Below are positions 3,614 through 23,777 of a stretch of 30,342 bases of DNA, one piece after another. Each line of letters opens with the position of its first letter. Positions within the stretch are counted from its first letter, which is position 1. The notes beneath the pieces were generated by a model, which was given only the letters and a program-made list of their open reading frames with translations, searched no databases and was not told the origin of the DNA. This stretch comes from a virus. The position numbers and the translations under genes are program-made. The DNA is taken from positions 1-30,342 of IMG/VR virus record IMGVR_UViG_3300042879_001125, one strand, 5' to 3'.

Positions 3614-4384
3614 TCAGATTGGTTCGGGAGTTGGGTGAATCATTTCGGCGGGACCATACCCGATGAAGGTCGAGTATCGGTGCTTGATGGCTCGATCGAT
3701 CGACGCCTCGGTCCATTCGTGGACGCCATCGCCGTTCCATCGCTTGCCCCAAGAGTTGATGTTTCTGACGTTGCCGCTCTTGCTGCGGAACCAGAAGAAC
3801 GTCGAGTGACCGCCGCCAGCCGGTTGCCAGTTGCTAACGATTTCCCGATCACATGAGTCTCCCCACATGACCCCGATCTGAACCGGCAAGCCGAGGTCGA
3901 TCCAGGCCAGCAAATCTTGCGTTCTGGAAAACGGCTTTGTGACGGCTAGCTTGTAGGAATAGTTGGCACCTTCCGGCTCCCGGTTGTTGTACTGCTGCGG
4001 GTACGGCCAGTCGTCCTCAATGCACATCCCATGTTGAGTGGCAACCCATTGGCCCCCGCTCAGGGTGGAGCCTCGATCCCCGACAATCCCGTCTCGCTTT
4101 TGGGACAGGTAGTATCCTGCCGCCGCACTGAACTTGATCTTTCGTCCAGTGTGCAGCCAGAAGCAGGCACCGAAGATCCCGGCAAGAGCTTGCCCCTGGC
4201 AGGAGCCTTGCCTTCCTTGGTCGCGAACGTCGTACACGCCAGTCGGATCGGAGTCGATTGCCAACTTAGGAAGCACATCCTTGAACTTTGCCATAAGCTC
4301 CAGGGGTTCCTCCCCCCGATTGTCGAGCATGGCCTTACGTTCAAACTCCCAGGCGTATCCGAGTGTTCCTCGTTCCAGCGTCAT
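3614..4384 (-). CDS. Papain-like (C1 family) cysteine peptidase
   Basis: The 256-residue protein shows the full C1 catalytic set in order. Gln56 lies in a DQGxxGSC context with nucleophile Cys62. His193 lies in GGGHSTFFWF, and Asn210 starts NSWG, the classical Asn motif of papain enzymes. The usual CWAFA after the Cys is replaced by CQGQALA, so the sequence is divergent but the key residues are intact. No signal peptide or long inhibitory propeptide is evident; about 50 residues precede the Gln. Its start overlaps the stop of the secreted Gly-Pro-linker protein gene (ATGA), which implies coupled expression. In a late phage operon it could cut virion proteins during assembly, act at the host surface during entry, or attack a protein-rich cell envelope at lysis. 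Enzyme class is clear from motifs. The biological target is inference. Confidence 0.85.
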   Translation of the reverse strand: MTLERGTLGYAWEFERKAMLDNRGEEPLELMAKFKDVLPKLAIDSDPTGVYDVRDQGRQGSCQGQALAGIFGACFWLHTGRKIKFSAAAGYYLSQKRDGIVGDRGSTLSGGQWVATQHGMCIEDDWPYPQQYNNREPEGANYSYKLAVTKPFSRTQDLLAWIDLGLPVQIGVMWGDSCDREIVSNWQPAGGGHSTFFWFRSKSGNVRNINSWGKRWNGDGVHEWTEASIDRAIKHRYSTFIGYGPAEMIHPTPEPI

Positions 4385-11997: not shown

Positions 11998-12366
11998 CTA
12001 CTGCTGGAATACGAGGAACGTGAGGTTGACGGTCGAGGCACTGGCCTTCGCGTAAACGTCGAGGGTCTGTAGCCTTGGCAGGAACGCTATCTCCCCTGGT
12101 GGCAGAGTGAATAGCGGGTAGAAAGTCCCGGAAACGTCTACGCCAATCTGAACGCTGTTCGTCGTATCTGGATTGAAAAGGTAGGTTGCCCCGCCGTTGG
12201 TCAGGGCTGAAAGAACGACTGCCTCTGCTGTGGTCCCGATGTTCTGAGATCCTCCAGCATAGAGGGTTGATCCGCTGTCGATCAGGAATTGCTTGTTGGG
12301 AATCTGGATGGCGATGCCCGACCGCTCGAAACGTAGCCCGAAGTCGATCGTCACTTCATTCGCCAT
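11998..12366 (-). CDS. Small beta-rich structural protein candidate
   Basis: A 122-residue protein made mainly of alternating short strands rich in Thr, Val, Ser and Gly, with few charges. There is no signal peptide, membrane segment or catalytic motif. Its composition matches small phage decoration, tail-tip or stopper proteins. It begins two bases after the methyltransferase stop and ends eleven bases before the 885-aa gene, so it returns the operon to virion genes after the sugar-modification cassette. No family is recognised. Confidence 0.7.
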   Translation of the reverse strand: MANEVTIDFGLRFERSGIAIQIPNKQFLIDSGSTLYAGGSQNIGTTAEAVVLSALTNGGATYLFNPDTTNSVQIGVDVSGTFYPLFTLPPGEIAFLPRLQTLDVYAKASASTVNLTFLVFQQ

Positions 12367-12368
12367 GA

Positions 12369-12938
12369 CTATCCCTTTGCAAGAACTCCAAAGCTATCCC
12401 AGTCGTCTTTTCCTTGGTAGACGGAAAGTTCCTTGGGGATGTGCCCAAGAAACTCCGACCTGATGTCCTCAATGATATAGAATTTGCGAGCCAATGGGGA
12501 AAGAATTTCGTAGGTCAAGAGCATGTCGGCAATTTCGTGCGAACCATCGTCCACGATGATGTCGAACTTCTGGCCTGTACTCGCTAGGTTTTCCAGGCTT
12601 TTTGGGCAAGATTGATCCAGGAAAAAGCTGTGGATTCTCCTCTCAAAAATCAGGGAATCCCTGCAAATATCCGCCCCGAAAACGGTGGCTCTTGGGAAAT
12701 AGCTCCGCCACATTCTCAGGCTGGCCCCGACTTGGTATCTATCCCCCACGATGGGTATCATTAGATCCGGCCTTCCGATTCCAATTTCCAGAATGCTCAG
12801 GATGTTTCGTCGAGATTCATGGAAAATGGCGTCGTACTTTGGCGTGTAAGTGTGCAGGATTCGCGGGCATTTGTCGCTTCCGAATCGGTATGCTGCTCGG
12901 CAAAGATCGGTTTCCGGCTGGTCTACTTCGATAGCCAC
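12369..12938 (-). CDS. Class I SAM-dependent methyltransferase
   Basis: The 189-residue protein starts at GTG 12938, which has AAGGA eight bases upstream and overlaps the preceding glycosyltransferase by 16 bases. An upstream start at 12980 would make a 58-base overlap and is less likely. SAM-binding motif I is LEIGIG at residues 50-55, the acidic motif after the second strand is GAD at 88-90, and DDGSH at 130-134 is the post-IV catalytic/metal region. The N-terminal GSDK followed by HTYTPKYDAIF is typical of sugar O-methyltransferases of the macrocin/mycinamicin group, which methylate hydroxyls of glycosyl units with Mg2+. This suggests that the substrate is a sugar added by the neighbouring glycosyltransferases; that link is inference. 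Confidence 0.85.
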   Translation of the reverse strand: MAIEVDQPETDLCRAAYRFGSDKCPRILHTYTPKYDAIFHESRRNILSILEIGIGRPDLMIPIVGDRYQVGASLRMWRSYFPRATVFGADICRDSLIFERRIHSFFLDQSCPKSLENLASTGQKFDIIVDDGSHEIADMLLTYEILSPLARKFYIIEDIRSEFLGHIPKELSVYQGKDDWDSFGVLAKG

Positions 12939-13498
12939 TTGATTATTCCTTCGCAGGCTAGCTCTGGCCTGCCATGCCATGCGACAATTCGTGGTGAATC
13001 AGATCGGTGGTCTGGATCATGGTCAAGGCTGTTCCATTCGTAGCCAAGTCTCTCGGCCATGAACGGCCTGTCCTTGAGCATGAGATTGAGGCAGTGCTGT
13101 TCTTTCCACTGGTGCCCATCGTCCCTGGAGTTTTCCCAATCGTCAACGAATGAGGCCAGCCCGTCCCTGTTGAGGATGTGCATGACTCCTGCATTGTAGT
13201 GGTCATATATGGGGTTGTGGTGCCACACCATTCCGAATGCGGCTTGTTGCTGAGTGTCCAGCGTGCCGTGAAGCCAAAGGGCGTCTGCGTCAATCCAGAC
13301 GATCCTTTCATATCCCTGGCGAAGTGCATCGCGAATCAGATACACCCTCTCCCATACTGGGTGCCTGTCCGTCCTGATCGTGTGCGAAACCTGATAAGAG
13401 TAGTCATAACGACGGCATAGTTCGTAGTGATGCCCTGCCGTGAGATACAGCATAGACTTGTAAATGCCGGTGGCATTTTGGATGACGACTGTTCTCAT
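12923..13498 (-). CDS. Glycosyltransferase with DxD motif (GT8/GT34-like)
   Basis: From the ATG at 13498 the protein has 191 residues. A longer frame back to 13663 lies wholly inside the preceding gene and begins with Arg-rich nonsense, so it is rejected. ATGA couples this start to the stop of the GT-B-like gene. Residues 66-72 read IVWIDAD, with the DAD at 70-72 being the metal/nucleotide-sugar DxD motif of GT-A enzymes. A later YNAGVMHI segment matches the Asn-Ala-Gly loop seen in GT8 and GMA12/MNN10-type enzymes, and a Trp-His-Gly near the C-terminus resembles their HxxG-type end. It is short compared with full GT34 members. Donor and acceptor are unknown. Confidence 0.75.
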   Translation of the reverse strand: MRTVVIQNATGIYKSMLYLTAGHHYELCRRYDYSYQVSHTIRTDRHPVWERVYLIRDALRQGYERIVWIDADALWLHGTLDTQQQAAFGMVWHHNPIYDHYNAGVMHILNRDGLASFVDDWENSRDDGHQWKEQHCLNLMLKDRPFMAERLGYEWNSLDHDPDHRSDSPRIVAWHGRPELACEGIIKWLSK

Positions 13499-14196
13499 AG
13501 TTCTGGTAGCTCGATCTTTCCATCTTGGACGTAGGATACTCCGTATCGATTGAATCGAACGGCGCTGTCTGTCTTCTCTGTGACTTCGACGATCATCTTG
13601 GGATGCTTGAGTCCTTCGGCAATCGCTGTCGAGCATGTTGCATTGCCAAGGTAGATGTCGCATCCAGCTATGGCCTGTGCGACTTCCATAAGATCGTTTG
13701 CAGGAATCCTTGGGATGCTTTTCTTGAACGCATTACAAAAGTCGATCCACTCGTCGTACAGTCCGATAAACCCAATGTTTCCCTGATATTTGTCGCAAAC
13801 CGCACCCCAATTAAACCACTGGCTTTGGTATCTAGCCGTTCTGTTGATGACTACTCTGTGGGTTTTGGTGGCCTCTGGAACCTTCAGCCAAGCGGATTCT
13901 CTGTGTCGCCAATCCATGCCCATTGTGGACAAGTGCTTATCACTAAGATTTCCCTGTCTCTTATGATCTCGGAACCCGTTGATATTGGTGTCGGTCGGAT
14001 GCTCGGTGAACCCAAAGGCGGTGATGTAGTCCTGGTATTCAATTAGTCTGCGAAGTCTCTCGGCTCGCTCCCTGGTCATTTCATGGGTCGTTCTTCCTGG
14101 GTAGTTGAACAACCATAGCTCCCCGCCGCCGCAAGCCCGGATGGTCGGCAGGGCATAGATGATGTCGCCCAAGTCGCCGCTATGGCTGAAGTACAT
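13495..14196 (-). CDS. GT-B-fold glycosyltransferase-like protein (heptosyltransferase-like)
   Basis: The 233-residue protein begins with SGDLGDIIYALP at residues 6-17, the Gly-Asp-x-Gly-Asp/Asn loop typical of GT9 heptosyltransferase-like and ADP-heptose-type proteins. Its C-terminal half has IPANDLMEVAQAIAGC followed by YLGNATCSTAIAEG, the region that in GT9 proteins binds the nucleotide sugar (usually written as a Ser/Asn-x-Thr/Ser-Gly-x-x-His pattern). The canonical acidic/His catalytic residues are altered here. It is shorter than bacterial heptosyltransferases (about 330-350 residues). The start overlaps the GT25 gene by 17 bases and has GGAG upstream. It could be active, or it could be a binding scaffold in the same cassette. 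Confidence 0.65.
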   Translation of the reverse strand: MYFSHSGDLGDIIYALPTIRACGGGELWLFNYPGRTTHEMTRERAERLRRLIEYQDYITAFGFTEHPTDTNINGFRDHKRQGNLSDKHLSTMGMDWRHRESAWLKVPEATKTHRVVINRTARYQSQWFNWGAVCDKYQGNIGFIGLYDEWIDFCNAFKKSIPRIPANDLMEVAQAIAGCDIYLGNATCSTAIAEGLKHPKMIVEVTEKTDSAVRFNRYGVSYVQDGKIELPEL

Positions 14197-15196
14197 TGGC
14201 CCTTACTCCTTCAAGTTGACGGATGGCATCTTCTGATGTGGACGCTGTTACCTTGTGCCAACGTGCGAAGGTGAACTGCTCAAGCAACTCGTCGGTGATG
14301 GATGGGTGGTAGAGGCATGGCAAGATCATGCCGTCCCGGACGACTTCACGCTGAACCCATTCGTACCATCGCCTGATGTTTTCTGCTGGCTTGGACGATC
14401 CTATTGCTTGGCACACTCCACGATCAAGCCCTTCTTCGGTCTTCCAGTTTCCTTGGTGCCATCCAAGTTTCTGAAGGTCTGCCGCAACTTCGAGAGGTGC
14501 CCGAAGGAAAATCCCCTCCGGCCTGCTGAACAACCTATGATCCCGACTGAACTTCTCTGGGTCATGCCACCAGTTCGCAGGATTCTCCTTTCCGCTAATG
14601 TTCGATCTGCCTGCATCCTGACCTACTAACCAGCGATTCGGAACGTACACGTTGATTCCGTGGCGTTCGTGCAGCCTCCCAAGGTGATGATCGATATGCT
14701 CCCCTTCGTGGAACGGGACCGCAAACAGATGCTCGTACAGTTTGGGATAGCCTCTTCGGTGGACAGCAAAGCAGTGAGTTCGGTTGACGTTGTAAGGCAT
14801 CAGCCAGTGTTGGCTGACGCGATTCGGCGGATGCTCGGCCTCGTAAAGAAGTTGCCCTCCGAGATAAAGCTGCTCCCAATCTTCAGGGAGAGTCTGCATC
14901 ATGGTCGCCAAGGATTCGGAGAAGTCTTCCGCAAAGATTGCGTCGTCCTCGAATACTAGATATGACTCATACCCCATGTTCCATGCGCGTTCAAGGATCT
15001 GCATGTGGGACCGATAACAACCCCACGCGCCGCGACCGGCAGTCCACCAGGAGGGGTGCTGGACAGTGTCGCCATGCACTGCTCTCCAGACTTGAAGTTC
15101 TCCGAGAAATGATTCCGGGTAAGCCTCACGGAATTTTTCTAGCCTGTCGTTTTTGAAGTGAAGGTTGATGACGAATGCTGCGTCAAACGGTTTCAC
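14180..15196 (-). CDS. Glycosyltransferase family 25-like (GT-A) with C-terminal extension
   Basis: The start is GTG 15196 with AGGAG five bases upstream, overlapping the preceding gene by 14 bases. The N-terminal strand AFVINL at 7-12 with Arg at 18, GAWGCYRSH at 56-64, and FEDDAIF at 82-88 form the signature set of GT25/LPS-biosynthesis-type enzymes, with EDD at 83-85 binding metal and nucleotide sugar. A further NRTHCFAVHRRGY segment and an Asp-His-His near residue 170 follow the family order. About 100 extra residues after residue 230 form a separate helical part of unknown use. Such enzymes transfer galactose or glucose to polysaccharides or to hydroxyl side chains of proteins (for example the collagen-modifying GT25 enzymes). 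Confidence 0.85.
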   Translation of the reverse strand: MKPFDAAFVINLHFKNDRLEKFREAYPESFLGELQVWRAVHGDTVQHPSWWTAGRGAWGCYRSHMQILERAWNMGYESYLVFEDDAIFAEDFSESLATMMQTLPEDWEQLYLGGQLLYEAEHPPNRVSQHWLMPYNVNRTHCFAVHRRGYPKLYEHLFAVPFHEGEHIDHHLGRLHERHGINVYVPNRWLVGQDAGRSNISGKENPANWWHDPEKFSRDHRLFSRPEGIFLRAPLEVAADLQKLGWHQGNWKTEEGLDRGVCQAIGSSKPAENIRRWYEWVQREVVRDGMILPCLYHPSITDELLEQFTFARWHKVTASTSEDAIRQLEGVRANVLQP

Positions 15197-15695
15197 TGCC
15201 TCTCCTTTCGTGCAGCATGATCGCGGTCATTACCAGTCCGCGAGCCGCAGTTTCGATGAAGGGGATTCCTTTTCGCGCCGCTTCCGTTCGCAGCCACGAC
15301 AAGATTTCGTCAATGCGTTCCCGGCACAACGCCGGACCCCAAAGATCCATCATCTGCTGATGGGCCTTGCAGTCGCAGCCTTCGGTATCGAGCCACGAAA
15401 AGAACTTCGACAGGGATGTTCCCGGCCCGGACTTCGGAACTTTTCCGACTGCTCCATCGCGAAGGTAGGCGTGCTGGCCGTTGATGTCGAGCTTGCCTTC
15501 GTTCTTGAGGTGATAGATCGCAATGGAGTAGGTGACATGGTTCGGTGCCATTGCCTCGGCCTGGGCGTGGCAAAACACACAAGCGTCGTTGATGACTGCC
15601 GCCCTCTTCTCTCCGTCTGCAATCCTCGCCAGAGAGCTTGCCACTCGGCACGAATAAGAACCGTCTCTTTCAACTTCACGCCAAGCGCAGTTCAT
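15183..15695 (-). CDS. Cys-rich protein of unknown function in the glycosylation cassette
   Basis: The start chosen is ATG 15695, which overlaps the stop of the poly-serine gene as ATGA; an upstream TTG at 15707 is less likely. The 170-residue protein has Cys at 3, 16, 39 and 42 in the N-terminal third and Cys at 107, 109 and 124 later, spaced as if for metal or disulfide. Residues 89-102 read SGPGTSLSKFFSWL, followed by Cys-Asp-Cys and MDLWGPALC, then helices. I recall this Gly-Pro-Gly-Thr plus Cys-x-Cys plus Met-Asp pattern in uncharacterised phage and planctomycete proteins that lie next to glycosyltransferases, but I know no function. A metal-binding accessory factor is one possibility. 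Confidence 0.7.
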   Translation of the reverse strand: MNCAWREVERDGSYSCRVASSLARIADGEKRAAVINDACVFCHAQAEAMAPNHVTYSIAIYHLKNEGKLDINGQHAYLRDGAVGKVPKSGPGTSLSKFFSWLDTEGCDCKAHQQMMDLWGPALCRERIDEILSWLRTEAARKGIPFIETAARGLVMTAIMLHERRGSETV

Positions 15696-16378
15696 ATTGC
15701 ACCGCAATTCGTAACTACAGTTTGACCAGGAAAGTCACCGTTAAATTGTGGCGGATTGCAAGCACATTTAGGCCCACCTGGGAATGGTGCTGTGCAATCG
15801 TCGCTAGTGTTTGTCCATCCAGATCCGTTCCATGTCAAGGTGCATGTTCCGCAAACAGGAGGCTCGCCGCCTCCACCGCTACTGCTGGACGATGACGAGC
15901 TTGAGGAACTAGATGATGACTTTCCAGGAGGCGGTAGGGAGCTAGACGACTCCGATGGAGGCGGGCTGCTGGAGCTTGACGGGCTTGAGGAACTGGAGCT
16001 TGGGCTAGAACTGGAGGAGCTAGAAGAACTGGAGCTTGACGGGATTGAGGAACTGGAGCTTGAAGAACTAGACTCTGATGGTGGTGGAGGGGGCGTCTTG
16101 CAAGTGCAGCAAGTGACTTCAAAAACTGGGACGAACGATGCTGTGGCCCCAAGGTAAGTGCCTGGGTATCTCAGTCCCGGAGTAAACGTCTCGCATTCGT
16201 TGACTATGAACAGGGGCGATCCGTCCGACGATGGACCTGCGTAAACCATCACACGCCTCGACGCCTTCTTATCGCCGCAGCGAGTACCGAAAACGGTGTT
16301 GCCAAGGTGAACAGCCTTGTACCGCCTGCGAGTGATTGAGCATATTCCAGATGAAGAAGAACTGCTGTCAGAACTCAT
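15692..16378 (-). CDS. Poly-serine virion protein with Cys-rich C-terminal module
   Basis: A 228-residue protein in four parts: a short Ser cluster at 2-10; a globular part at about 11-95 ending in a Cys-rich CCTC; a Ser/Pro stretch at 96-167, in which about 52 of residues 101-167 are Ser; and a C-terminal module at 168-228 with Cys at 176, 179, 195, 205, 207 and 225, a WNGSGW segment and FNGDFPGQT. The last module resembles small Cys-repeat modules that I associate with planctomycete and planctomycete-phage proteins. ATGA overlaps join it to the 427-aa tail gene before it and the Cys-rich gene after it. The layout suggests a surface-exposed appendage tip with a flexible stalk, located directly before three glycosyltransferases. 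That it is the acceptor of their sugars is a hypothesis. Confidence 0.75.
   Translation of the reverse strand: MSSDSSSSSSGICSITRRRYKAVHLGNTVFGTRCGDKKASRRVMVYAGPSSDGSPLFIVNECETFTPGLRYPGTYLGATASFVPVFEVTCCTCKTPPPPPSESSSSSSSSSIPSSSSSSSSSSSSPSSSSSSPSSSSSPPPSESSSSLPPPGKSSSSSSSSSSSSSSGGGGEPPVCGTCTLTWNGSGWTNTSDDCTAPFPGGPKCACNPPQFNGDFPGQTVVTNCGAI
15878..16078 (-). repeat. Poly-serine coding tract
   Basis: This stretch encodes residues 101-167 of the poly-serine protein, with Ser runs of up to 14 broken by Pro, Glu, Ile, Leu and Lys. The codons are not a DNA microsatellite: the last run of 14 Ser codons (residues 154-167) contains all six serine codons in mixed order. The tract is therefore repetitive in protein but not in DNA. 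Confidence 0.9.
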
Positions 16379-17658
16379 GTCGATAAGTCCTTGACCTTGC
16401 AGACGTATAGGTCACGCCACGATCCGTTCTCGAATCTCTGGACGATTCCGTCGTAGAGTCCATCTGTTCCTGGTGCGCTGGATGTCACCAGGACAACTTC
16501 CATCACCGAATACGCTCTCTGGATCGGCTTGGGTAGATCGAACTCGAATGGTTCAAACAGTTCGATGACTGTGTAGTCGCCCTTCTTCTTTGAGTCGTGG
16601 TAGTAGACTCGCGACAACTGCTCTCCAGGAACAAGATCAAACAGAAGTTGGGAGTAGGCTGATAGTCCAGGAAGGGAATTGGCGGTCGCCTTGCCGTAGA
16701 TCGAGTACGAAAGATCGGTGGCTCGGTTGTTGATTTGCGTGGTGTTGTAGACTTGGCCGTCAAGGAGGACCGTGTACGTCGTATCGACAATGCTGACCTT
16801 CGTGCCGGGAATGGCTCCCGATGCCCCGCTGCTGAACTCTATCGCCTCTGGCTGTGCGTAGGAGGCCCAAGTAATCTTCGTGTGCAGAACCGGAGGAAAG
16901 ACGACGCTCACCTTTTCTGGTGCGTTGCGTCCGTTGTACGGAACATCTGCCGTCCACTTGATAAGAGGCTCGTAGCTTGAGAGTAGTGCGCTCAATCCAG
17001 TCTGCGTGCCGTTGTGCGAAGCGAATCGGTACAGCCCCGTTGCGAGATCGTAGACTGGGAAATGGCCGCAGGCTTCAAGGGCTTGGCAGATCGATTGCCA
17101 GACGCTCACTCCGTCGAAGTTCAGATTTTCAGGAACGCTCACCGGAGTCCTTGCAAGCGTAGGGCATGTCGTTGAGTTTGCTTTCGCTGTCGCTGGGAGG
17201 AGCAACCATAGCGCGTTGAGTAGCTGCTGCCAAGTGAGTCCTGCGCTAACGTCGAAGGCAAACATCTTATCGTTCAAGAGCCAAGAGTTATCGACAAACG
17301 CATTCTCGCCGACATGCCTTGGGTCTTTGCACTGAACGTAGTAGGTTCGTGCTGGGTCAGGATTCGCCTGTGCCTCTTCGATCGCTTCAATCTTGGTGAT
17401 CGTCCACCCATCGCTAGAGAACGTCGGTGCCCCGTCTTGGGCGACCGAAATTGTTACTGTCGCTGGTGCGGCTGGAAGCTGTTCGACGTACTGTTTGTCT
17501 ACCAGGAGGTGTGCTGTCGCCGCCCTTCGTCCACGAAAATGCTCGATGCTGTTGACCTTGTTCCACCAGTTCAGTGCGTAGATCGATTCGCTGCGAGGGG
17601 CGTGCAGCAGATCCGGCGAGGTACACGGATACCCATTGATACTGAATTGCGTCGGCAT
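16375..17658 (-). CDS. Tail-tip / baseplate-type protein candidate
   Basis: A 427-residue, beta-rich protein without signal peptide or membrane segment. It starts with FSINGYPC, a strand-turn pattern frequent at the N-terminus of phage distal-tail or hub proteins, and continues with mixed alpha/beta segments rich in Trp, Tyr and Thr; several regions resemble the tail-hub domains that surround the tube exit. No enzymatic motif is visible. Its start shares one base with the stop of the 248-aa gene (TGATG), and its end overlaps the poly-serine gene (ATGA). Position after the tail-tube candidate and before the appendage-like protein supports a tail-tip role. The specific family is not established. 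Confidence 0.6.
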   Translation of the reverse strand: MPTQFSINGYPCTSPDLLHAPRSESIYALNWWNKVNSIEHFRGRRAATAHLLVDKQYVEQLPAAPATVTISVAQDGAPTFSSDGWTITKIEAIEEAQANPDPARTYYVQCKDPRHVGENAFVDNSWLLNDKMFAFDVSAGLTWQQLLNALWLLLPATAKANSTTCPTLARTPVSVPENLNFDGVSVWQSICQALEACGHFPVYDLATGLYRFASHNGTQTGLSALLSSYEPLIKWTADVPYNGRNAPEKVSVVFPPVLHTKITWASYAQPEAIEFSSGASGAIPGTKVSIVDTTYTVLLDGQVYNTTQINNRATDLSYSIYGKATANSLPGLSAYSQLLFDLVPGEQLSRVYYHDSKKKGDYTVIELFEPFEFDLPKPIQRAYSVMEVVLVTSSAPGTDGLYDGIVQRFENGSWRDLYVCKVKDLST

Positions 17659-18404
17659 CAGAGAATCACTGGGGCTAGGTTGTTATTGTACGGGAATTGA
17701 TAGATATACTTCCACGCTGTTCGGTAGAGAGCATACCCCTGCCCCCACTTCTTCGGAGAAGTGTAGGCTACGGTTGTCAAATCTTCTAGGTAATTCCATC
17801 CAGATGCAAGAGGTGATGGAGGAGTTGGGTATCCGAGTAGGGATACGGCATATCCGCTGTGAACGATCTTCTGAATACTGTAATACGATAGGAGGCGAGG
17901 CTGAGGGTACTGGGTTGGGTAAACCCTCCACCGCTTGATCGGACCCGCTGTTCCGATCCTCTGAATCGTGTCCTGGTAGTCAACGACGTTCGAGTACGAC
18001 GACACAAACTCGTTGTAAAATCCTGCTTGAAACGTCTTCTTCGAGCAGAACTCAGTGTCGTCCCCAGGTGCCCAATTCAAGTAGGTCAGCACGTTTCCTG
18101 TGAGGCTTGTCGAATGTGCCGACTGAAGGAACATCGAAGTAACGTCGCCGTCGTCTCGGTAGAATCCGATGTCCTGATAGTCAGTTGAATATGCCGCCTC
18201 CAGTGCCAGCATTTTCGTGTTGAGATCGTCTTGCTTCTGAAGGTTGGTGGTCAGTGTCGGGTTGGCCAGGAGTTCTCCGCGAACATGAACCTCGACTCTG
18301 GTGGTCATTCGCCTCCCGCGAGGGGATCTGCTTGGTCGGTAGTTGAAACTTGCGACCGTCACCGTGTTGTCGTCGTGCTGATAGCTGCCGACCTTGAAGT
18401 ACAT
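17658..18404 (-). CDS. Tail-associated structural protein candidate
   Basis: A 248-residue protein with a beta-rich N-terminus (about 1-50, including a basic RSPRGRR turn), a central helical segment with Tyr/Asp-rich loops, and a C-terminal half rich in Tyr, Trp and Pro. It has no signal peptide, membrane span or catalytic motif. Both ends share one base with neighbouring genes through TGATG junctions, which indicates re-initiation by the same ribosomes. The position between the disordered 290-aa protein and the hub-like protein points to a tail or tail-tip structural role, in the place where distal-tail proteins usually sit. No family is recognised. Confidence 0.55.
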   Translation of the reverse strand: MYFKVGSYQHDDNTVTVASFNYRPSRSPRGRRMTTRVEVHVRGELLANPTLTTNLQKQDDLNTKMLALEAAYSTDYQDIGFYRDDGDVTSMFLQSAHSTSLTGNVLTYLNWAPGDDTEFCSKKTFQAGFYNEFVSSYSNVVDYQDTIQRIGTAGPIKRWRVYPTQYPQPRLLSYYSIQKIVHSGYAVSLLGYPTPPSPLASGWNYLEDLTTVAYTSPKKWGQGYALYRTAWKYIYQFPYNNNLAPVIL

Positions 18405-22994: not shown

Positions 22995-23777
22995 TTAGCG
23001 GAGTCCTCCACCAATCAAAAATGGTCGCCGTGTTACCCAGGCTGCCCTAAATGATGGGCCTGCTGCAAACTTGAAAAATCCAGTGTCGTCTATCGGAAAC
23101 AGGTCTGCGTTTCGCCCGCGAAGATACAGCCCCATAATTTCGTCGGGAGTATGGGTTACGTTATAGAGCCTGCAATCGCTGAGCCTTCCGAGATAAAAAT
23201 TTGCAGCAGAAACGCGAGCATAAGCACCTAATGACACACGGTTCAGTGTCATTGTTCTTGCCACAGTGTCTGCCGTTTCAATGTCAAGCCGACCGTTGAC
23301 GTAAATTCGCACCGATGACGTTGACTGGGAGACGTAAACGTGAGTCCAGATATTTGCATTGGTTGCAACGGATCCCTGGACTATGAGAGTACCAGTTCCG
23401 CCATCGGCTCGAACGACTAAGCGAATAGGTCGTCCAGCATTTTGAGACCCTATAATCCAGTAAGGGTTGTTTGAAGTTGAACTTGAAAGACCAAAAATTC
23501 CTCTGAATCCAGTTGTGGTGTCGTTGGTCTTGCACCAAAGAGACATAGATACTGTTTTATTTGCTGCCATCGCTCCTTCGACTTGAGTACCTATGATTGT
23601 TGCATAGTCGTTTGAGCCATCGAAATCGAGAGAGTACGAAGATCCATCGGCAACCCAGTCGGTCGCTGGGTCCATGTCGATGAGTCGCATCTGCAAGTCT
23701 TCACGCCAGACGTCTTTTACGCCCCAGCCAGAAGGGTCTTGCATCGAGAACGCTCGAACTAGCCCACGCGTTGTCAC
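22995..23777 (-). CDS. LamG / concanavalin A-like domain virion protein
   Basis: A 260-residue protein starting at GTG 23777, which overlaps the preceding stop (GTGA). Residues 49-59 read SLDFDGSNDYA, the usual first strand of LamG/ConA-like lectin domains, and a later segment IWTHVYVSQS followed by VRIYVNGRL is the typical pair of strands with a Trp-x-His-Val and an Asn-Gly turn. The domain spans about 45-215. Such domains in phages bind glycans on the host surface or decorate capsids and fibres. A Pro/Phe/Arg-rich C-terminal 40 residues follow. Its position in the head/connector block suggests a decoration or attachment role; the ligand is unknown. Confidence 0.8.
   Translation of the reverse strand: MTTRGLVRAFSMQDPSGWGVKDVWREDLQMRLIDMDPATDWVADGSSYSLDFDGSNDYATIIGTQVEGAMAANKTVSMSLWCKTNDTTTGFRGIFGLSSSTSNNPYWIIGSQNAGRPIRLVVRADGGTGTLIVQGSVATNANIWTHVYVSQSTSSVRIYVNGRLDIETADTVARTMTLNRVSLGAYARVSAANFYLGRLSDCRLYNVTHTPDEIMGLYLRGRNADLFPIDDTGFFKFAAGPSFRAAWVTRRPFLIGGGLR

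Follow-up and report, generated by a model that had tools for sequence, protein, structure and literature searches.

A poly-serine tail-region protein encoded directly ahead of glycosyltransferase genes: a possible mucin-type O-glycosylation system in phages

Phage glycosyltransferases (GTs) that change the surface glycans of the host are well established, and virion glycosylation has reportedly been described by Freeman et al. in 2023 for the mycobacteriophages Che8, Corndog and Myrna. The locus considered here lies in IMG/VR virus record IMGVR_UViG_3300042879_001125, 30,342 bp long (the whole record is referred to as the window). In it, a poly-serine (poly-Ser) protein of the tail region, presumably a virion protein from the position of its gene, is followed by a Cys-domain protein, a GT25 glycosyltransferase, further GTs and a methyltransferase (MTase). 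According to two mycobacteriophage reports, Che8, Corndog and Myrna glycosylate their capsid and tail tube proteins with GTs of their own (PMC12363180, PMC11256854), a precedent for the virion self-glycosylation that an earlier note on this DNA had called unusual. Both cases involve phage-encoded GTs that are proposed to act on the phage's own structural proteins, and in the window the GT genes do stand beside virion genes. The same descriptions set the two apart: the mycobacteriophage acceptors are capsid and tail tube, with the glycan shown, whereas the acceptor proposed here, suggested by the genes, is a poly-Ser or poly-Thr stalk, and the core enzyme is a GT25 joined in the core by a Cys-domain protein. 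What is new is the mucin-like stalk, the GT25 and the undescribed Cys domain, virion self-glycosylation being known already from mycobacteriophages.

Other described proteins offer partial parallels. COLGALT1 and mimivirus R655, the nearest solved relatives, share with the window GT25 a Pfam family and the EDD motif; they are protein-acceptor GTs of eukaryotes and of a giant virus, whereas the window cassette contains no collagen repeat and its proposed acceptor is Ser. The polyserine linkers of Saccharophagus and Teredinibacter carbohydrases resemble the stalk in being long, almost pure Ser tracts between domains (about 80% Ser over about 40 residues, compared with 78% over 67 residues in the window). 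However, those linkers join carbohydrase domains to carbohydrate-binding modules in secreted enzymes, an arrangement that the poly-Ser protein does not have; it belongs to a phage tail region and has dedicated GTs adjoining. The window MTase is homologous in sequence to MycE, but MycE has 419 aa and acts on macrolide sugars, whereas the window protein is a 189-aa domain within a phage GT cassette.

The Ser stalk of the tail-region protein (Thr in relatives) is probably O-glycosylated by the enzymes encoded directly behind it, the acceptor being indicated by linkage. Self-glycosylation had been put forward in the earlier note, and the co-occurrence of stalk and GTs bears it out in part; a glycan on the stalk is read from that co-occurrence. 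The poly-Ser protein (228 aa, 15692..16378, minus strand, as are all genes of the cassette) comprises an N-terminal domain, a CCxC motif (CCTC, residues 90-93, 16100..16111) immediately ahead of the stalk, the stalk itself (residues 101-167, 15878..16078), which is the proposed O-glycan acceptor, and a C-terminal Cys/Trp bead domain (CxxCxxxWxGSGW...C...CxC...C, 15695..15853). No Pfam domain flanks the stalk on either side. A CC or CCC motif precedes the stalk in most poly-Ser relatives, and a domain similar to the bead follows a Ser stalk in L216 and a poly-Thr stalk in L006. Counting gives exactly 52 Ser in the stalk, matching the approximate figure given earlier; relative to the 6.6% Ser of six other long window proteins, the chance probability of this content is 7e-48. 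All six Ser codons are in use, and of 26 codon differences from the gene of the near-identical relative L003, 25 are synonymous and none changes a stalk residue. The tract is therefore maintained as protein and not as a DNA microsatellite. Stalk proteins of L036, L042 and L099 carry short Cys/Trp bead-like segments beside Thr tracts, so that they resemble a beaded mucin string.

The coupling of stalk and GT is real and extends far beyond this phage. Protein-seeded viral scans found very close relatives only, and DNA patterns were used for the wider search. The pattern for the GT25 subfamily (YNVNRTHxF), blind to both Ser and Cys, occurs at 55 viral loci in IMG/VR. Among those with at least 2 kb of upstream sequence, a Ser/Thr tract (at least 18 of 30 residues, within 5 kb) lies upstream on the same strand in 41 of 44; the opposite strand has one in 3/44 and the downstream side in 1/41. 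Such a tract is present in each of the ten clusters (formed at 60%) and in every Pirellulales copy with upstream sequence, so that the in silico co-occurrence check suggested previously is passed. This GT25 subfamily yielded no instance of the case named as damaging to the idea, a GT cassette lacking a Ser-rich neighbour: the three loci under the tract cut-off (L213, L244 and L219) are Ser-rich nevertheless. An apparent lack of poly-Ser in L217, L241 and L246 was discarded as an artefact of open reading frame (ORF) calling, an antisense ORF having been retained where the in-frame reading gives 30/30 Ser. The distant GT25 proteins of huge phages L258 and L259 have no Ser/Thr tract upstream. Across the subfamily the GT25 cores are 38-78% identical to the window copy, with order and strand kept. 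A Cys-domain gene could be recognised at most of the 55 loci, though not at every one. Most of the ten clusters, like the Pirellulales prophages, contain the conserved core of poly-Ser, Cys and GT25 genes, and all ten pair poly-Ser with GT25; the later GTs and the MTase form the variable part, and Thr stalks pair with GT2.

The same association is seen from the side of the Cys-domain protein. Its motif C.C.{6}M[DN].WG...C, searched as a DNA pattern (checked on the window; 0 matches expected by chance), occurs in at least 119 stretches of viral DNA and 61 of bacterial or archaeal genomes, many of them Pirellulales. Protein checking left 164 loci in 74 clusters (70% identity); 41 of the loci have a Ser/Thr tract, in each case upstream, on the same strand and within 3 kb. 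The linkage was evaluated in 50 viral records (47 clusters), a stalk requiring at least 20 Ser/Thr in 30 residues and a GT requiring a Pfam GT25 or GT2 match at E<=0.01 within 3 kb. Both are present in 8 clusters, a stalk only in 2, a GT only in 1 and neither in 36, which places GT25/GT2 in 8/10 stalk-bearing vs 1/37 stalkless clusters (Fisher p=1.2e-6, or 2.0e-5 once two weak GT2 matches are added). In the two stalk-only clusters, L026 and L137, the Cys domain has a fusion partner that is GT-like but unclassified. The residue of the stalk follows the enzyme: GT25-positive loci are all poly-Ser, and in the poly-Thr loci the Cys domain forms a fusion with GT2. An apparent poly-Thr ORF in L112 was left out of the count, as it sits in another frame of a longer gene.

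The window Cys-domain protein (170 aa, 15183..15695, GPGTxL...CxC-x6-M[DN]xWG-x3-C) matches nothing in Pfam, NCBIfam or PHROG, and the family members scanned likewise have no Pfam or NCBIfam model over the domain. Its AF2 model is confident and helical (pLDDT 89); Foldseek against the PDB with VIA-align returned no convincing fold (best Z 4.7, over part of the helical region), and in BFVD two uncharacterised phage proteins alone stood out. A pentatricopeptide assignment based on phmmer matches was rejected, as no stretch passed alone and the fold searches lent no support. Its fusion partners at various loci are GT2, GT25, GT8-like and Mannosyl_trans3/FkbM proteins; because of these fusions the Cys-domain protein may be a docking factor, and an adaptor is the best reading of it. 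In L108, L082 and related clusters, which form large groups, the Cys-domain proteins stand alone behind Cys-rich tail proteins with no recognised GT, so the domain must have a GT-independent role there.

The enzyme calls of the earlier note stand for the most part. The GT25 (338 aa, 14180..15196) belongs to PF01755 (37.5 bits vs a cut-off of 24, E=3e-9) and carries invariant EDD, NVNRTH and HxDH motifs; the EDD (E83 D84 D85) is invariant in 17 aligned subfamily members and aligns with that of COLGALT1. The subfamily profile finds procollagen galactosyltransferase 1 (1.4e-14) and mimivirus R655 (2e-11) as nearest PDB relatives, and other GT25 structures (8xlz/8xc8) at 1e-3 only. The next gene (233 aa, 13495..14196) is present as described, but its GT-B label comes from motif reading: its product has no significant Pfam, NCBIfam, PHROG or PDB sequence match, and the fold model is unusable (pLDDT 30). 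A homologue accompanies poly-Ser, Cys and GT25 genes in the separate lineage L254. The predicted DxD-type GT (191 aa, 12923..13498) is a nucleotide-diphospho-sugar transferase-like enzyme (Nucleotid_trans, PF03407, 24.2 bits vs a cut-off of 22, E=3.9e-5), and the sugar O-methyltransferase call (189 aa, 12369..12938) is confirmed as MycE-like by homology to PDB 3ssm (E=1.6e-19) and 8ia9 (E=1.2e-16).

In the favoured scheme, glycosylation would take place in the host cytosol, prior to assembly. The Cys-domain protein would dock the GT onto the Cys-rich tail protein, GT25 would put the first sugar on a stalk Ser, the variable GTs would lengthen the glycan and the MTase would cap it. The product would be a rigid, protease-resistant, mucin-like stalk ending in the bead domain, perhaps a receptor-binding tip, and the glycan coat would be free to diversify among phages. 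The pairing is kept in unrelated phages and in planctomycete prophages, which makes the phage's own Ser/Thr stalk the most likely target of the sugar-adding enzymes; an acceptor-enzyme pair would also account for the match between stalk residue and GT family and for the lack of membrane parts in the enzymes. More tentatively, these loci could represent a widespread phage system of mucin-type O-glycosylation, in which the Cys domain (CxC-x6-M[DN]xWG-x3-C) docks interchangeable GTs on Cys-rich tail proteins, with matched poly-Ser/GT25 and poly-Thr/GT2 pairs among the tail genes of both planctomycete prophages and unrelated phages.

Several points weigh against glycosylation of the stalk. Once the fused GTs missed by Pfam are counted, a GT is present in 10/10 stalk-positive vs about 10/37 stalk-negative clusters of the Cys family (~4e-5, by hand), and some of these clusters are related, so that the Fisher p-value overstates independence. 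Polyserine linkers are common in bacterial carbohydrases, where their function is unknown (PMC2699552). More distant fusions of Cys domain and GT (L022, L045, L051, L080) also adjoin Cys-rich tail proteins that have no Ser/Thr stalk; the Cys domain thus does not go with such stalks exclusively, and the Cys-rich bead could be what is really glycosylated.

The main rival is modification of the receptor, which seems unlikely. The stalk protein would be a receptor-binding tip and the GTs would change the host surface glycan that it recognises, so as to exclude superinfecting phages or avoid adsorption to debris, with adhesin and enzyme co-evolving and staying linked. Such a role for phage GTs is established, the bead at the stalk end could bind glycans, and the further GTs and the MTase do differ among phages. 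However, this explanation does not predict a Ser-rich neighbour with GT25 (10/10 clusters) and a Thr-rich one with GT2, nor does it account for the fusion of the Cys domain to GTs. The cassette proteins also include no membrane protein or flippase: none has a 19-residue window with mean hydropathy >1.5, hence there is no sign of the membrane GT or flippase that serotype conversion needs, and the combination of membrane flippase and polyprenol-linked GT that marks serotype-converting (gtr) clusters is missing.

Rather improbable is an acceptor in the Cys-rich tail protein (bead or CCC region), the Ser/Thr stalk being an unglycosylated flexible linker that is often found alongside. The fusions beside stalkless Cys-rich tail proteins (L022, L045, L051) and the carbohydrase linkers are what this explanation would lead one to expect, but nearly all GT25-subfamily loci have a stalk, and the choice between Ser and Thr follows the GT family. 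A mobile cassette (moron), whose stalk, Cys and GT genes travel linked with no mutual action, fits the patchy distribution and the lack of the cassette in deposited phage records other than distant GT25 matches in three huge-phage records; it is very improbable given that the GT25 cores diverge so widely under constant order and strand, that L113 repeats the pairing with another GT family and residue, and that GT-Cys fusions exist. Action of the GTs on phage DNA bases can practically be dismissed: PHROG 854, the best phage family for the window GT25, is named glucosyltransferase, but no base-hydroxylating or thymidylate-synthase-like gene is found among the window proteins scanned and the stalk linkage would be left unexplained.

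If stalk glycosylation is correct, many uncultured phages and planctomycete prophages would make glycoprotein tail stalks with their own enzymes, using a compact modular system with interchangeable GTs. GT25 would gain a bacterial-virus role on protein and the unnamed Cys domain a function, and bacteria could be made to produce defined mucin-like O-glycans from a short gene set. Which acceptor the enzymes use can be tested directly with the matched Ser/GT25 and Thr/GT2 pairs. The 50,697 deposited phage records contain no match to the Cys protein or to a GT2-Cys fusion, and GT25 matches are distant only, in three huge-phage records. This near-absence would explain why the system is undescribed; a literature search found no paper combining polyserine, phage, tail and glycosyltransferase.

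The late genes of the window are on the minus strand. Transcription runs from terminase (PHROG 2) through a portal-like protein, a LamG-domain protein and some unassigned genes to a 248-aa protein (17658..18404; a very weak lambda tail-tube match, E=0.044) and a 427-aa protein of the tail-region series (16375..17658), directly upstream of the poly-Ser gene. The poly-Ser, Cys-domain, GT25, GT-B-like, Nucleotid_trans and MycE-like MTase genes follow, and a 122-aa protein (11998..12366) is encoded last. The order and tight packing described in the earlier note hold, with three starts corrected: the Cys protein now begins at 15695, the Nucleotid_trans GT at an ATG at 13498 and the MTase at a GTG at 12938. 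Four-base overlaps join the poly-Ser/Cys and GT-B-like/Nucleotid_trans pairs, which suggests translational coupling of the block. Among the closest relatives, L003 (59.6 kb) keeps the whole block except the MTase, cleanly missing and replaced by a short spacer (L003 11456-11577); the MTase, which had been counted as part of the cassette, is thus present in the window and not a fixed member. L004 and L005 keep the entire block, with 68% identity in the stalk protein and 76% in GT25, and in L006 the bead domain is as in the window protein on a stalk of Thr instead.

Homologues of the flanking genes recur, the 248-aa protein in L143, L186 and L042 and the 122-aa protein in L113 and L163. The poly-Thr/GT2 cassette of L113 ends at its copy of the latter. 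One slot among the tail genes therefore appears to take either poly-Ser/GT25 or poly-Thr/GT2. In the Pirellulales copies the gene order is tape measure (PHROG E=3e-80), a 263-aa protein, poly-Ser, Cys, GT25, GT2, GT2 and radical SAM. In these genomes the GT25 pattern again falls on those Cys-family loci where a poly-Ser gene is present, and the few without poly-Ser are truncated upstream. The radical SAM-like protein (L207 3450-4259) is possibly an additional modification enzyme. The loci on Pirellulales chromosomes (L145-L198, e.g. L206/L207) are compact prophage-like elements with head/protease genes, tape measure and cassette, several per genome (the Rhodopirellula rubra genome has four motif matches), and could be prophages or domesticated particles. 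Elsewhere in the window, the LamG/concanavalin-like lectin domain protein lies upstream in the virion gene series (22995-23777, E=1.6e-17), and a papain-like peptidase gene (3614-4384, weak PF00112 match) has a look-alike in the Pirellulales element L206 (8277-8879).

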